From a virus, in the IMG/VR virus record IMGVR_UViG_3300027719_000004, positions 1 through 64,000 of that record: 64,000 nt of DNA; one strand, written 5' to 3'. A model generated the notes under the pieces. That model was not told where the DNA came from. It did not search any database and saw nothing but the letters and a program-made list of their open reading frames with translations. The translations under genes were made by a program, and so were the position numbers. Positions 16,399-36,875 of this stretch are shown here, one piece after another; positions within the stretch are counted from its first letter, which is position 1, and the number at the start of each line of letters is the position of its first letter.

Positions 16399-17544
16399 TC
16401 ATAATCCAAATCCTTTCATGGCATCCTGCTTATGATCTTCAAGCAGGTGAGTATACCTCTGCGTGATCCAAAGCGTACTATGTCCTGCTATATCTGCCGC
16501 CAGCTGGATGTCCTTGGTCTGCATGATCAGGTGAGTGATAAAGCAATGCCTCAGCTGGTGAAAGATAAAGTCTCCCAGCCCTGCCCTCTTAACAGCCGCA
16601 TCAAATCCGATGTTGCTGCTGACCAGCATGGCGACGCCCGACTTCTTGGGTGACGGGAATACCCAACCACCTATGTTGGTCTCGTTGGCAAGTTTCCATT
16701 CCAACAGGGCCTTCTTCAGTTGGGCCGTGAGGGGTATCCTGACTTCCTTGCCCTGCTTTACCGTCCGAGTGATCTTGTTACCCTTCCAATCAATGTGCTC
16801 CCATCTAAGCCCCAGTATGCCCTCCTTGCGTAGTCCGGTGTGCAGGGCTACTGTCACCATGGTCTTGAGATGTTTAGGTGCAACACGGTCTCCACAGGCC
16901 TCCAGAAGCTTGGCAATCTCTTCTTTTGTTAATGCCCTGTCTCTGGTCTTGGGCTCTCCCAGTTTAGGGTAGTCCTCCATGGGGTTTCTGGACAGCATTC
17001 TCTTCCTCACACATATCGTCAGTAGCCTGCTTATGGCTGTCAGCTCCCTGTTAATAGTGGCTGGCTTGGGGAACTTATCCGTATCCTTAATTGGTTGTGT
17101 CTTCCTGACCCTTATGTAGTCATCAATGGTAATATGATCCAGCCTCGTTATGTTGGTGTTACCCAGTATAGGCAGCACGTTGGTATTGATGGCTGACATA
17201 TACCGCTTGGCCGTCTTTGAATCCAGAGACCCATTTTCTACCTGCTCTGTGCACCACTTGTCAAATATGGCAGCGGCCTCTTTCAGCGTGTAGCTGGATG
17301 GCTTGGTTGTTATCTCTCCAGAAGATGCCCTCCTGATCAGCTCTGCCTCACGGGCTAGAGCATCTGCCTTGCTATCTCCCATCGTCTCAGAATACTTCTC
17401 TCCTCCGATATAAACTGACAGCTTCCACTTGCTGTACTTGGTAGCAGCACCCCCGCAATGGGGGCACCTCTCTCCCTTAATCTTTTCGGTCTGGACCTGC
17501 CTGACCTTCCCGCAATCACATGTTAACAGTTTGAAGACTGCCAT
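16399..17544 (-). CDS. int: Tyrosine recombinase (phage integrase)
   Basis: 381 residues. An N-terminal zinc ribbon (Cys at 9, 11, 27 and 30) is followed by a SAM-like core-binding domain (about 70-180) and the catalytic domain. Catalytic residues are visible: Arg in H-T-G-L-R-K (about 236), H-Q-L-R-H (about 328-331), G-H-S-T and the Tyr in Q-R-Y-T-H. GGAGGTGA precedes ATG, and the upstream repressor stop lies within that site, so the two are co-translated. It should recombine the tRNA-Cys attP core at 14461-14510 with the host gene. The zinc ribbon is a less common N-terminal addition and may bind the arm sites. Confidence 0.9.
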   Translation of the reverse strand: MAVFKLLTCDCGKVRQVQTEKIKGERCPHCGGAATKYSKWKLSVYIGGEKYSETMGDSKADALAREAELIRRASSGEITTKPSSYTLKEAAAIFDKWCTEQVENGSLDSKTAKRYMSAINTNVLPILGNTNITRLDHITIDDYIRVRKTQPIKDTDKFPKPATINRELTAISRLLTICVRKRMLSRNPMEDYPKLGEPKTRDRALTKEEIAKLLEACGDRVAPKHLKTMVTVALHTGLRKEGILGLRWEHIDWKGNKITRTVKQGKEVRIPLTAQLKKALLEWKLANETNIGGWVFPSPKKSGVAMLVSSNIGFDAAVKRAGLGDFIFHQLRHCFITHLIMQTKDIQLAADIAGHSTLWITQRYTHLLEDHKQDAMKGFGL

Positions 17545-30241: not shown

Positions 30242-30365
30242 CCCCTCCTTGTCGCTTTTGCTCCCCGCATTAGGTCGCTATTAAATGTTTTTAGGTTCCA
30301 TAATACAGGGAGTTAGCTTTAAATGTATGTCGTTTTTCACTGATTATTAGGGGGCCTAATACTCG
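30242..30365. other. Intergenic stretch with a degenerate attC-like box
   Basis: On the minus strand the upstream gene stops inside CCTAACG, and TTAGGC follows directly, giving CCTAA-N6-TTAGG. This could be the two R boxes of a deleted attC, or a chance hairpin. No credible gene. Confidence 0.35.
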
Positions 30366-30638
30366 TTAGGTACTTTCAGGCGGAGCAGGTAGTGGCATCC
30401 AGTAGGTAGGCGGCTTACTGTCAAACGCAAATTGGTGTCCAATGATAAAGTAACCGTTAGACCACTTTGCCGCTACCTGAACACGGCTGTTGTTTATGGT
30501 ATCAACTTCTGGCAGCAAGACCAGAACAGGTGTTCCGTCCGTCGGCATTGTATCAATCGGCATCCATGTGCCTAACGCGCATTCAACGCGGAGTTGCTTG
30601 CTCTGGGCGCAATTTCCAGCAGTTTCTTTCTCGCTCAT
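30366..30638 (-). CDS. DUF551-like protein (90 aa)
   Basis: Residues from ~25 on (W-M-P-I-D-T-M-P-T-D-G-T-P-V-L-V, then P-P-T-Y-W-M-P-L-P-A-P-P) match the DUF551 phage family. The first ~24 residues are coded by the right part of the attC-like site, so the original start may be the internal ATG at residue ~26, which lies 10 bases past the predicted crossover. Confidence 0.65.
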   Translation of the reverse strand: MSEKETAGNCAQSKQLRVECALGTWMPIDTMPTDGTPVLVLLPEVDTINNSRVQVAAKWSNGYFIIGHQFAFDSKPPTYWMPLPAPPEST

Positions 30639-30689
30639 TCGGTGTCTCACTCTCTTCGGTATCGCAACCCGGTTAATTTTGTACGTTAG
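30572..30689 (-). other. attC: attC-like recombination site (118 bp)
   Basis: Minus-strand reading: CTAACG...CGTTAG outer boxes. Inner boxes TTAACCGGGTTGC and GCAACTCCGCGTTGAA pair imperfectly, with an unpaired G in TTGAA as in true attC. The end reads GCGTTAGGC (core GTTRRRY). The upstream gene stop lies in the left box. Confidence 0.55.
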
Positions 30690-30973
30690 AGGCTATCGGC
30701 CAGCGCCTCTCTTGCTACCGCTGTCGCGTCTTCAATCGTGTAGTCCATCTCAGGGCAGGTAGTTGCCGCTATATTTTCGAGGGCTTCTTTGTATCTGGCT
30801 ATTTTTCTTTCAAACTGGCAAATTTGAGCCACGTAAAATGATCCTGCTCTGTTATGGAATTGGCCCTGCAGCTCTTTTACTTCTGTGGATAATCTCTTTA
30901 AGGCGAGTGCTTGCATTGACCTACTATTTTTATTCCGTTCAGCCTCTTCAAATGCTTCTGCCAGTGTCATCAT
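30686..30973 (-). CDS. Hypothetical protein in an attC-like cassette (95 aa)
   Basis: Double ATG after AAAGGAG, 22 bases past the end of the upstream attC-like site; its stop lies in the next one. Helical, with A-L-E-N-I-A and E-D-A-T-A-V-A-R-E-A-L common in phage tail-end helices. Looks like a one-gene cassette. Confidence 0.6.
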   Translation of the reverse strand: MMTLAEAFEEAERNKNSRSMQALALKRLSTEVKELQGQFHNRAGSFYVAQICQFERKIARYKEALENIAATTCPEMDYTIEDATAVAREALADSL

Positions 30974-30994
30974 AATCCGGCTCCTTTGCTGCCT

Positions 30995-31053
30995 CTAACG
31001 GCTCAATCAAGTGCGACTGGCTTACAGCCAGCGCCTTATCTCGTTCTCGTTAG
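30995..31053 (-). other. attC: attC-like recombination site (59 bp)
   Basis: Minus strand: CTAACG ... CGTTAG with a perfect inner hairpin CTGGCT/AGCCAG. The left box AGATAAGGCG pairs with CGCACTTGATT, leaving one extra G after CTT. An unpaired G at this position is the strand-choice mark of integron attC sites. Directly follows the gene at 31058. Confidence 0.6.
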
Positions 31054-31057
31054 GTAT

Positions 31058-31252
31058 TTAGCCAGTAATCTCTCCGCAGCCAGTACAAAAAATCTCAAAT
31101 CCAAAGTGGTGTCCAAGGGTGTTATCTTTCCCAGCTGCAACCGCTTCATCTTCTGTGTCAAATGTAGCAAGCTCTTCGTGTTCATCACCTACAACTAATG
31201 GTGCAATCCCACCGCTACAGCAATTCAGCATTACAAAATATGGTTTCATCAT
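31058..31252 (-). CDS. Hypothetical protein in an attC-like cassette (64 aa)
   Basis: Starts 24 bases past a GTTAGGT core and ends five bases before a full attC-like site. Contains C-C and a terminal C-T-G-C, so possibly zinc-binding. Its size and position match single-gene integron cassettes. Confidence 0.6.
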   Translation of the reverse strand: MMKPYFVMLNCCSGGIAPLVVGDEHEELATFDTEDEAVAAGKDNTLGHHFGFEIFCTGCGEITG

Positions 31253-31254
31253 GG

Positions 31255-31311
31255 TTATTTCCTCTCTGCACCTAACAGCTCAATCAACTCGGACTGGCTT
31301 GCGTTTTCCAT
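31255..31311 (-). CDS. 18-aa ORF across a partial attC
   Basis: MENASQSELIELLGAERK, with an AAGGAG site inside the previous gene's last codons. It covers the partial attC-like site and may only keep ribosomes moving to the next start. Confidence 0.25.
   Translation of the reverse strand: MENASQSELIELLGAERK
31272..31302 (-). other. Partial attC-like site
   Basis: Right half only: shares A-A-G-C-C-A-G-T then TTGATTGAGC and GTTAG with the full site at 30995, but the left half is absent. It ends with GTTAGGT. Confidence 0.45.
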
Positions 31312-33301: not shown

Positions 33302-34600
33302 TTATGCCCTCGGTTGCATATGGACTACTCTCCCGAACGGTGGCTTGCGGTGCTTGTCACCGTCTGAAGTGACCACCCAAAGAACAGGGCAATCAGGTGC
33401 GGTACCGAATGAATTGCAGCACATGTCAGTAAAAAACACCAAGCAGGTAGGCTCTTCGCCCAGTTTCCTGAGCTCTGGCATGACCGGACTAAAGTCAGTG
33501 CCTCCTCCGCCAGTGGGCCGTAACTTGAGTGGCAGGTCTTCAGGTGTAACCGTCTGTCTACTACCAACCTGTGCGTCACAGTAAATGATCTCGATACTGG
33601 GCGGTTTCAGGTCTTCGCAGATAGCCGTGATTTCTCCGGCGAACTGATTCATATCGTGATCTGACATCGAACCGCTGGTATCAACTGCTACTGCAAAGAA
33701 GTCCATATTGCCTTCACTGCTCATGCTGGGCAGATACAGATCTTGTGCTATGTAGCGGCGGTTAGCTTTAGCCCAGCTGTAGTCGTCCTTTGAATTGGCG
33801 GTCAGAAAGTCACGCAAGGTATCTTTCCAATCGACAACTGGCCTTAGTACCTCTGCCAGCAGACGCTCAAGACCGCCCGGGAGCTTGCCCTGTGCCTTTG
33901 CAATCTGCGCTGCCTGTTGTACTGCCTGTTGCCATTCTGACTCGTGCTCTGCCAGTTCGGCTGGGCCGTCAACTGGGGCGTCCATAACACCACCGCACTT
34001 GCCCGGATCAGGGCACTGCTCAGGCTTGCCGTCACCTTTGCCTTCACCGTCCTGATTAGATGGTGTGCTGGGCTCGTCAGACGGCGTGCCTTCACCTTTT
34101 GGGTTATCGCCTTCAGTATCACCTGCCTCACCAGATGGCTTGCCTTCAGGCTCCGGCTCTTCCTTCTGGTTCTTCAGCTTGGAATAGATCTGCTCTGCAC
34201 TCATTCCCTTGTACTGGGGATCGGCAAGGCCACCCTTCAGCATCTTGTAGCCGTAACTGATCAGCTCCAGATTGATTGCGTGATCAGCTGCTATGTTAAA
34301 CAGTCTGGGGTCACGGTTACCACGGCGTGAGGTGTGATTTGCTACGCAGTGCATGATCTCGTGTAGCAGCACGAAGTGGGCGTCATCATCATCCAGCGAC
34401 AATATCCAAGCTGGGTTGTAGATCAGTTCCACGCCGTCAGTACCTGCGGTTTCAATCTCAGGCACCTCACGGCGGTTCAGCTTCATTAGCAGTATTGCAA
34501 AGAACGGCTCAGTTATGATGATCTTGATCATGAGGCGTTCAAGTTTCTGCTCTGCGGTTTCGCCTCTGTTGTTTGACTTGCGTTTTGGCATGACGTTCAT
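33302..34600 (-). CDS. Metallopeptidase (DUF2201-type) with C-terminal VWA domain
   Basis: 432 residues. N-terminal domain with H-E-I-M-H at ~80-84 (zinc HExxH), a long Glu/Gly/Pro-rich linker (~130-200), and a C-terminal von Willebrand A fold with MIDAS D-T-S-G-S (~304) and G-G-G-T-D. Such proteins pair with MoxR AAA+ ATPases and are thought to remodel protein complexes. A MoxR gene lies two genes upstream. No phage substrate is known. Confidence 0.8.
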   Translation of the reverse strand: MNVMPKRKSNNRGETAEQKLERLMIKIIITEPFFAILLMKLNRREVPEIETAGTDGVELIYNPAWILSLDDDDAHFVLLHEIMHCVANHTSRRGNRDPRLFNIAADHAINLELISYGYKMLKGGLADPQYKGMSAEQIYSKLKNQKEEPEPEGKPSGEAGDTEGDNPKGEGTPSDEPSTPSNQDGEGKGDGKPEQCPDPGKCGGVMDAPVDGPAELAEHESEWQQAVQQAAQIAKAQGKLPGGLERLLAEVLRPVVDWKDTLRDFLTANSKDDYSWAKANRRYIAQDLYLPSMSSEGNMDFFAVAVDTSGSMSDHDMNQFAGEITAICEDLKPPSIEIIYCDAQVGSRQTVTPEDLPLKLRPTGGGGTDFSPVMPELRKLGEEPTCLVFFTDMCCNSFGTAPDCPVLWVVTSDGDKHRKPPFGRVVHMQPRA

Positions 34601-34601
34601 G

Positions 34602-34802
34602 TTACGCCTCCTTCATATCAAGGGCTTTGTTTACTTTGTGTAGTGCGCTGGTCATGTCCTCCTGAATGTTCAGCAGGTCAGACACAAACTCAGCACGGCA
34701 TCCGTCCACGTTTTGCAAGGTCTCTTGCAGACCTAATCCTGCGTCAATCAGGGCGTTCGCTATTATTACCAACTCGTTTTCAGTAAAGTTTATCTTAGCC
34801 AT
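34602..34802 (-). CDS. Small helical protein of the MoxR/VWA module (66 aa)
   Basis: AGGAGG site, one base from the VWA start. Two amphipathic helices; no motif. The repeated element lies 14 bases before its start. Confidence 0.55.
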   Translation of the reverse strand: MAKINFTENELVIIANALIDAGLGLQETLQNVDGCRAEFVSDLLNIQEDMTSALHKVNKALDMKEA

Positions 34803-34816
34803 GGCGGCCTCCTGTG

Positions 34817-34830
34817 ACGGTATAGTGGGT
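34817..34830 (-). promoter_or_regulatory. ACCCACTATACCGT element before gene 34802
   Basis: Preceded by GTTTA as at 35724. The end of the upstream stop codon falls in it. Confidence 0.5.
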
Positions 34831-35699
34831 TAAACTAAGTAGCCTGACATCATATCCAGAATGGCCTGAGCTTCAGCTGCCACTTGTTTCTGATGGACAT
34901 CTGCACCTTCACGCTTGCAGGTTTCAATCGTACCCTGAACTGGGACCAGCTTTTCTTTGAGAGCTGCAGCTACACGGTCAAGCTGAGGGTCCTTGTCAAG
35001 GTTGAGAGCTGGCAAGATAGCAACCAGATCAGCAATGTCTCCGATCAAACTATCGTGAACACGTTGGTATTGCCCGTCCTTTAAGGTGATATGGACACGG
35101 GACACCGCATCATATACCCGTTGCCATACGTTCTTCATGGCCTCACGGTGGGCGTCTACCATGCGGGTTTCAAGGTCTGAAGTAGCAAGTGCGATCTCGT
35201 AATCGACCATCCCTTCAAGGTGGCTAAACTGGCCACTTGCTGGCAACGGGTTAACGGAGAAGGAACAGCTGTAGCCAGATTTAAAGTCGTACTCAGTGGG
35301 ATAGTCGGCTTCATTAAAGGTGCCGTTCAAGGCGATACGGCGTCTTGCCATAATAGCCTGATAGTCAAGGCCCTTGATCATGTTATTGATCTTGTCAATC
35401 CCGTCACGCATCTTGTGGCTGTAGTCCATATAGAGTTGGGTTACCAGCAGAGCAGAACCTTTGTCCAACCATGGGATAGTCATATGGTAGTGGACCGATT
35501 CCCTGAGTCTGCTGATTTCCCGCTCGACATCTTCCAGTTCAGCACCAAACAAATCTTTAACTGTTTTCAGTGTCTTACGTCCTTTGACTCCGTGGTTTGC
35601 CCGTTGTTCTTCAGTCAGGGCCTTGTCTACACGGGACAGAGTGGGGCGGTTTACGTTAAAGCTGACGAGTACAGCGTGATTAGATAGGTTAAAGCTCAT
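34830..35699 (-). CDS. DUF3150-like protein of the MoxR/VWA module (289 aa)
   Basis: ATG 35699 has AGGAGGTGC; a longer frame upstream covers the repeated element and is not credible. Segments G-R-K-T-L near residue 43, H-M-T-I-P-W near 80 and a helical C-terminus are like DUF3150 proteins, which travel with MoxR and VWA genes in phages. Family call is moderate. Confidence 0.55.
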   Translation of the reverse strand: MSFNLSNHAVLVSFNVNRPTLSRVDKALTEEQRANHGVKGRKTLKTVKDLFGAELEDVEREISRLRESVHYHMTIPWLDKGSALLVTQLYMDYSHKMRDGIDKINNMIKGLDYQAIMARRRIALNGTFNEADYPTEYDFKSGYSCSFSVNPLPASGQFSHLEGMVDYEIALATSDLETRMVDAHREAMKNVWQRVYDAVSRVHITLKDGQYQRVHDSLIGDIADLVAILPALNLDKDPQLDRVAAALKEKLVPVQGTIETCKREGADVHQKQVAAEAQAILDMMSGYLV

Positions 35700-35723
35700 G
35701 GTGCACCTCCTGTGCATTCGTTG

Positions 35724-35737
35724 ACGGTATAGTGGGT
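35724..35737 (-). promoter_or_regulatory. ACCCACTATACCGT element before gene 35699
   Basis: 24 bases from the start codon, just upstream of the AGGAGG site. It shares GTTTA at its 5' side with 34817. Confidence 0.5.
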
Positions 35738-35837
35738 TAAACTTCCAGATTCTAGCGGGTGCCCCAGAACCATTCCAAGGAATAAGGCACCCTAACAACC
35801 TGATAGTTAGTTATTCATGTGGACATCACCTCCCTTT

Positions 35838-36875
35838 TTAAGCCGCACCTAAGCGGTCACCATACAAATTGAACCAGTCAGTCCAGACCTTTGACATCAT
35901 CATGGCTGGGCCAGCTGGCGTCTTACATGCGTATTCTGCCATCATGACACTGAACTCAGCAGGTAGCCGCATGGTGTACTGAAGGAATGCGTCGGCGTTG
36001 GTGCTGTTCAGGTGGGCACAAAGTCCCCCTGCCATGGCGTAAAGTACAGATACCTTTTGTGGTATCGGTGCACCAAGTGGGTCAGCAAGAACCGTTTGAG
36101 GCGGGATCATATCGGCCATGATGTCCAGAAAGGCTCCCAGCTCTACCGCTTGGCCCTTGCCGATAATGCCTGACAGGACGGCGTGATACAGGTTGCGAGT
36201 CAGGCCGTTGTTCAGGTAATCAGATACCGCTTTCCAGCTACGTGGTGAGGCAAAGATCAGCTCTTCAGCTGCAGTCTCAGGATTGAAGTCGTATAGATTG
36301 GAGCCCTTTTTGTAAGACAACCAAGCAATAACCCCAGCGTTAACACCGGACCGGAAAGCCCAATCACGCCAGTCATCAAAGTCAACTACCATTTCCAAGT
36401 GGGGATGAAAGCGGTCAGCCAGTGCGGTGGACATCTTGCCAGCAGATCCGGCCCTATCCCCTGCCCAGTTCCCAGCAAATACCAGAGTCCATCCTTCAGG
36501 TAGTACGCTGCCCCGTAAAGCCCTTTCCTCTCCTGCCAGTTCCAGCATTGCCGCCTGATTGGCCATAGCCGCCTTGTCTATTTCATCAAACAGGACCAGA
36601 CCTCTTGTGCCAGCTTTTGGAAACCAGCTGGGTGCTGCAAAATGAGTGATTCCGTCCTTAACGTAAGGGATACCTGCCAGCTCCACTGGGTCGATTTGAG
36701 ATAGCCGGATGTCGATAAGCTCAAGGTCGTTTTCCTTGCAGAACTCTTTGACAACGGCTGACTTGCCGATACCGGGAGAGCCCCAGATACCCACGTTGCG
36801 GCCTGATTTGTAGGCCATGGACAGGACTTCTTTCACGGTGCTTGATTTGACTTGCATGATGTTCTTCTTGCTCAT
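35838..36875 (-). CDS. MoxR-type AAA+ ATPase
   Basis: 345 residues. Walker A G-S-P-G-I-G-K-S (~31-38), Walker B L-F-D-E-I-D (~94-99), sensor 1 V-F-A-G-N-W and an arginine-finger segment T-A-L-A-D-R-F-H. These ATPases work with VWA proteins as chaperones that load metals or remodel complexes. The partner lies two genes downstream. First large gene of the module, with the repeated element 26 bases before the start. Confidence 0.85.
   Translation of the reverse strand: MSKKNIMQVKSSTVKEVLSMAYKSGRNVGIWGSPGIGKSAVVKEFCKENDLELIDIRLSQIDPVELAGIPYVKDGITHFAAPSWFPKAGTRGLVLFDEIDKAAMANQAAMLELAGEERALRGSVLPEGWTLVFAGNWAGDRAGSAGKMSTALADRFHPHLEMVVDFDDWRDWAFRSGVNAGVIAWLSYKKGSNLYDFNPETAAEELIFASPRSWKAVSDYLNNGLTRNLYHAVLSGIIGKGQAVELGAFLDIMADMIPPQTVLADPLGAPIPQKVSVLYAMAGGLCAHLNSTNADAFLQYTMRLPAEFSVMMAEYACKTPAGPAMMMSKVWTDWFNLYGDRLGAA

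Follow-up and report, generated by a model that had tools for sequence, protein, structure and literature searches.

Integron elements are not foreign to phages. Qi et al. (2023; PMC9892861) described integrons, CALINs and attC sites in phages, many of them without an integrase, and showed that IntI1 can join attI1 to attCs taken from three virulent phages. The closest case in that study is the cryptic Shewanella prophage M16-3, which carries a complete integron and a CALIN, each with an attI. The locus described here is alike in having phage attCs and cassettes, and differs in that divergent phages repeatedly have an attI but no intI, and in that the open reading frames (ORFs) run against attC polarity; Geobacter is not mentioned in that paper. 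No paper on such Geobacter-phage arrays was found among the open-access literature, preprints excluded. Thus, while phage attCs and CALINs are already known (Qi et al. 2023), the recurrent form that is headed by an attI and reversed in polarity is new.

The locus lies in the window, by which we mean the whole stretch of 64,000 nucleotides analysed (positions 1 to 64,000 of IMG/VR record IMGVR_UViG_3300027719_000004). It consists of an attI and three cassettes without intI, with the ORFs antiparallel to the attC sites (Table 1). We regard it as probably a phage-borne integron that has no integrase of its own and is served in trans by the IntI of its host. Several unrelated viruses carry the same arrangement, which suggests that phages borrow the recombinase of their host to swap genes. 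Until now, attCs in phages had passed for occasional passengers; that several unrelated phages conserve an attI but have no intI suggests a capture platform which is maintained and relies on a recombinase of the host. If true, this is an integron living off the integrase of another genome, which would open a directly testable path by which cassettes could travel between phages and chromosomal integrons, bear on the origin of integron cassettes, and illustrate selection on cassette polarity where the promoter lies on the other side of the array.

Table 1. Features of the integron-like array in the window
Feature	Position	Strand	Description
attI, Trichlorobacter/Geobacter type	30248..30369	+	Host-trained profile; alignment of host and phage attI
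attI L-like box	30355-30361		CCTAATA
attI R box	30365-30371		GTTAGGT
attI upstream repeats			TGTCG(C/T)TTTT and TTAGGTCG
Cassette 1	30366..30685	+	Crossover in attI to crossover in attC1; from box positions
Cassette 1 ORF	30366..30650	-	DUF551 protein; Pfam DUF551, E 6e-8; PHROG 924
attC1	30570..30691	+	R'' GCCTAAC, L'' AACGCGGAGTTGC, L' GCAACCCGGTT, R' GTTAGAG
Cassette 2	30686..31049	+	From box positions
Cassette 2 ORF	30686..30973	-	95 aa
attC2	30993..31055	+	R'' CTCTAAC, L'' AAGTGCGACTGGC, L' GCCAGCGCCTT, R' GTTAGGT
Cassette 3 ORF	31058..31252	-	64 aa; CxxC motif
18-codon ORF, MENASQSELIELLGAERK	31255..31311	-	Spans the attC3 half-site and stops just before the cassette 3 ORF; direct reading
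attC3 half-site	31270..31300	+	R''-L'' only; distal end of the array

Recombination sites and reversed cassettes in a phage operon

The attC sites of the window are genuine. Two covariance models were used, one (R1) from eight attCs, all of class-1 plasmid cassettes and with their variable loops cut back, and one (R2) from 20 attCs of Geobacter/Trichlorobacter genomes, none of them from virus records. R1 has a single match across the 64 kb, namely attC2 (27.8 bits, plus strand, E 5e-5). R2 finds attC2 (71.5 bits, E 2.4e-19), attC1 (62.2 bits, E 1.9e-16) and the attC3 half-site (21.6 bits, E 1.2e-3), and its best score elsewhere in the window is 11.2 bits; Qi et al. (2023) used an attC model of their own with a cut-off of 20 bits. 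The original prediction had proposed two full attC-like sites and a partial third, to be doubted if covariance scores stayed at noise level. The scores rise above noise and all three sites are present, the third with only its R''-L'' part kept. A search of the window with Rfam at its gathering threshold found nothing. What defines a CALIN is attCs alone, at least two close sites without intI; the host model gives two such full attCs here and the class-1 model one, and the window keeps the attI landing platform as well.

It could be asked whether the repeats merely encode an N-terminal peptide, SQSELIE-L, that recurs among phage genes which are otherwise unrelated. Indeed, the R''-L'' half is translated in many cassettes, as in ORFs of the phage contigs L080 and L085 that contain S-K-S-E-L-I-E. 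However, a peptide explains neither E-values of 2e-16 to 2e-19 with the host model together with an independent class-1 match, nor the L'-R' halves, the compensatory stems and the attI described below. As the cause of the repeats it is refuted by the covariance and attI results, and the chance that coding or coincidence accounts for them is negligible.

The L'' and L' boxes of attC1 and attC2 form stems with two unpaired bases on the L'' side, and folding with RNA parameters gives the expected box pairing with the same two unpaired bases. The bottom-strand fold that had been proposed as a check came out in part: with DNA parameters, the bottom strand of attC2 is more stable than shuffled sequences (z -3.0), whereas the long-loop attC1 is no better than shuffles. 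Loops homologous to that of attC1 occur in a phage attC of L080 (z 7.7) and in a T. thiogenes attC (z 4.7). The R''-L'' core of the attC3 half-site is identical to that of host attCs, and the half-site cannot recombine as it stands. Reduction of the distal attC to its R''-L'' half is also seen in other phage arrays (L063, 12040; L085, 11383; L059, 189 and 1315), and in the window and L063 the distal half-site forms, on the operon strand, part of a short ORF that ends at or just before the start of the next gene.

With filters off, attC2 scores 27.8 bits on the plus and 4.7 on the minus strand with R1, and 71.5 against 4.2 with R2. Because of this large difference, canonical attC polarity in the window is plus, and the minus-strand ORFs are therefore reversed relative to normal cassettes. 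This overturns the minus-strand attC polarity that had been assumed at first and, with it, the standard cassette layout: all three window ORFs run against the attCs. The central proposal, of gene cassettes within a phage operon, is confirmed. Cassettes 1 and 2 each hold one ORF and one attC between crossovers, and cassette 3 carries only half an attC. The stops lie in or beside R boxes, where CTAAC on the operon strand supplies TAA, and the starts lie just outside R'' or within an attC loop. For example, the cassette 1 ORF stops inside the attI R box and starts in the attC1 loop, at GTG 30650 or ATG 30638, and the stop of the cassette 2 ORF, which belongs to no family above cut-off, is the TAA of the attC1 R' box. 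Since the genes flanking both sides share the strand of the ORFs, the array looks like a stretch of a leftward operon, and a transcript of that operon would presumably pass through the cassettes. Promoter-like matches at the array do not exceed those in shuffled sequences, and the ORFs point opposite to the Pc direction. The same minus-strand gene run includes, at 33302-36875, an AAA ATPase (PHROG 1297) as well as a protein of 432 aa that the PHROGs label as HNH endonuclease and that has a metallopeptidase-like HE..H motif.

At the head of the array stands an attI. A profile built from six host attI sites alone matches positions 30248-30369 of the window over the full length of the profile (4-144, E 3.5e-5). 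What is conserved is the core CTAATA..CGTTAG, the preceding TTAGG and the upstream TGTCGTTTTT / TTAGGTCGTTTTT repeats; the spacer between these parts drifts. The box noticed near 30360 in the original prediction does exist, but it is the attI R box and not a degenerate attC. As this left-hand box is part of a full attI, the locus is more than a set of orphan cassettes.

Recurrence in unrelated viruses and in host integrons

A degenerate pattern made from attC2 and attC3 matched one IMG/VR contig, which belongs to an unrelated phage and whose roughly 130 bp before the array resemble window positions 30247-30370. A search with the leader pattern added two more phages and one chance match, and a last scan with an attC pattern added further virus records. 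A full-length attI followed by cassettes is thus present in the window and in G013, G014, G015 and G018; G016 and G019, which are one phage in two assemblies (100% identical over their common part), have a partial attI, and G020 has a marginal one. With the host profile, the attIs of G014, G015 and G013 reach E-values of 3.9e-10, 1e-8 and 9.7e-8, that of a fourth other phage reaches 1e-4, and the next best match after the window, G013, G014 and G015 scores 4.3 bits. The window attI is the most diverged of four aligned phage attIs. Two candidates were set aside as chance matches: a microvirus-like contig without attC or attI (L007) and a Paenibacillus contig with a lone weak site of 12.4 bits (L012).

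The phages that carry an attI are not one family, because the proteins they have in common, where matches exist, are for the most part 21-35% identical. The window is a phage with an SU10-type portal, of which G015 is a remote relative; G013 and G016 have a GpA terminase, G014 a family A DNA polymerase and G020 a Prim-Pol protein. An absence of such sites from related phages had been named as grounds for abandoning the prediction; instead, even unrelated phages carry the same arrangement.

Among 17 phage attCs the sequence varies while the stems are kept, with 90.5% of cells paired and ten pairs changed on both sides, which is compensatory. The covariation score is 0.293 against 0.099 in shuffles, and none of 500 shuffles reaches it; when partners are slid by one to three columns, pairing falls to 23-44%. 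The boxes were extracted by hand into an ungapped alignment, which favours structure somewhat, and the slid controls used the same alignment.

The sites are of a host type. An attC pattern run over 84,980 genomes found 17 stretches, almost all in Geobacter, Trichlorobacter or deltaproteobacterial bins, and several of them are multi-copy arrays. IntI above cut-off is present in 7 of the 12 host genomes examined, and in six host genomes the phage leader lies between intI and the first cassette. The sedentary chromosomal integrons of Trichlorobacter/Geobacter thus have the attI and attC type of the phages, so that the type of site links divergent phages to a single host group; the attC and attI sequences of the window are of that type too. 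The suggestion that the cassettes came from a host integron therefore holds as to the host link, although it had overlooked the full attI. Single host loci show further features. IntI appears broken in G010 (C36:3373-4316), where it is split by a TAG while the genome keeps its attI, and G003 has a short IntI remnant beside attI (C17:72578-72769). In T. thiogenes, a small ORF at about 2540-2800 of L065, between intI and attI, may encode a protein resembling a YefM/Phd antitoxin.

In host arrays intI stands beside attI and most ORFs are forward, unlike in the phages. Taking the longest ORF on either strand between the crossover points of each cassette, host arrays have 34 forward, 4 reversed and 15 undecided cassettes, and phage arrays 1, 19 and 5 (Fisher p 1.7e-10; 0.0014 when all undecided cassettes are counted against the difference). 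These results bear on a fossil account, according to which phages took up pieces of a host integron, the attI with the first cassettes, through illegitimate or homologous recombination; these pieces would since have stopped recombining and would persist for the use of their genes. We consider this unlikely, yet worth weighing because no recombination event has been observed, because distal sites are reduced to halves (window 31270; L063, 12040; L085, 11383) and because the window attI has diverged. It does not fit well with recurrence in at least five divergent phages, with attI boxes conserved while the spacer drifts, or with compensatory changes in attC stems. In addition, ORFs in a fragment taken from a host array should mostly be forward, and the phage polarity is consistently the opposite; nor would a frozen remnant readily account for the duplicated and shared cassettes described below.

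Proposed source of the recombinase and sharing of cassettes

The original prediction had seen no integron integrase in the window, and this was borne out: TIGR02249 (IntI) has only a weak match, which falls in an ordinary phage integrase at 16399-17544, and none near the array. No intI stands beside the attI in the window record, and none of the virus records in the set has an IntI above cut-off. Some of these records could be incomplete, so this absence is not proof, but that of the window reaches 66.8 kb and that of G015 53 kb. The window encodes RecE, RecT, an antirepressor, head and terminase proteins besides the phage integrase, and is on these grounds a phage, probably a temperate one.

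Its host is apparently Trichlorobacter/Geobacter. This assignment rests on the attI/attC type, since a search of 76 Trichlorobacter-family genomes for a prophage with the phage attI found none and the window capsid protein has a single distant relative there (44% identical). The clear attI matches in these genomes that could be checked, G082 left out, all lie beside intI or an intI remnant. A blastn search with the locus against 50,697 phage records found none that matched, and protein-pattern searches of IMG/VR with the 95-aa cassette ORF and with the AAA ATPase gave no match. Three contigs with related TerL proteins do not cover the array region, two of them at 24% identity (L005, L006) and one at 81% and only 5 kb long (L004).

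The anatomy of the array is observed; that IntI acts on it in trans, that the operon is transcribed through the cassettes, that polarity is under selection and that the host is the one named above are what we infer. Chromosomal IntI in the same cell would act in trans on the phage attI, inserting and excising cassettes there, presumably crossing over at G|TT in the R box. In a standard integron cassettes enter next to Pc, whereas in the phage operon we propose the reverse, with new cassettes entering at attI, the promoter-distal end. Only cassettes with a reversed ORF and a ribosome-binding site of their own would then be read, and reversed-ORF cassettes would be retained since only that polarity is read by the operon. 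The R or R' box (GTTAG) may supply a TAA stop to the preceding ORF and, with the next start just outside R'' or in the attC loop, translation could restart from cassette to cassette. More broadly, and with less assurance, we lean towards the view that phages of one bacterial clade repeatedly adopted a host attI with reversed, operon-compatible cassettes, and that the IntI already in the cell, working in trans, lets them diversify an operon and trade cassettes with one another and with the chromosomal integron of the host.

Cassette sequences are shared. Over its full length, the cassette 3 ORF has 70% identity with a cassette ORF of G016, an unrelated phage; it was not found in the 76 Trichlorobacter-family genomes or the phage records. 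The start region of the cassette 2 ORF has 40 nt identical to a chromosomal cassette of T. thiogenes, about half of them outside the attC. That chromosomal cassette, one of some reversed cassettes in the T. thiogenes array that are related to phage ones, also matches some 140 nt of a G015 cassette. The proteins of these two cassettes have homologous N-termini: their first 30 residues align with a score of 84, where the best of 500 shuffles reached 41. By these matches, such cassettes occur both in phages and in a chromosome that bears IntI. Within the G016 array, one cassette ORF is present in two copies that are 99% identical.

Sharing could also reflect module swapping from phage to phage, with the attC and attI patches serving as short homology and IntI having no present role. 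The RecE- and RecT-like proteins of the window and the cassette 3 ORF held in common with an unrelated phage would suit this, but it predicts neither conserved compensatory stems nor conserved attI boxes, and we think it improbable. An integrase-less integron served by host IntI remains our preferred reading.

Several further observations concern cassette relationships. In G016, a cassette tandem is present twice (L080, 827-1247 and 2303-2722), with ORFs 99% identical in one cassette. Trichlorobacter MAG11 has an attI-adjacent cassette with a reversed ORF (L067, 45-170), whose attC loop resembles by eye that of a phage attC (L085, 9933-10057), below the z cut-off. A lone attC in a T. lovleyi MAG (L024, 1118-1243) resembles in its loop a phage attC (L080, 3243-3367; z 6.1); ordinary chromosomal genes lie on one side of it, and its reading as a prophage is unsupported.

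By content, the phage cassettes resemble accessory genes of phages and not the usual cargo of host cassettes, a point that the original prediction had missed. Besides the DUF551 protein of the window, which has a relative in G016, PAPS reductase relatives adjoin attI in G014 and G020, and a cassette of G013 encodes an HTH protein. PADLOC found no match among the window ORFs and, for the other phages, gave only domain-level matches to PAPS-reductase-like and HTH proteins, so that a defence role for the phage cassettes was not adopted. The attI-adjacent PAPS reductase relatives (L008, 11444-12178, in G014; L085, 8774-9637, in G020) belong to PHROG 424, and their PADLOC matches are SspD-like and BrxP-like.
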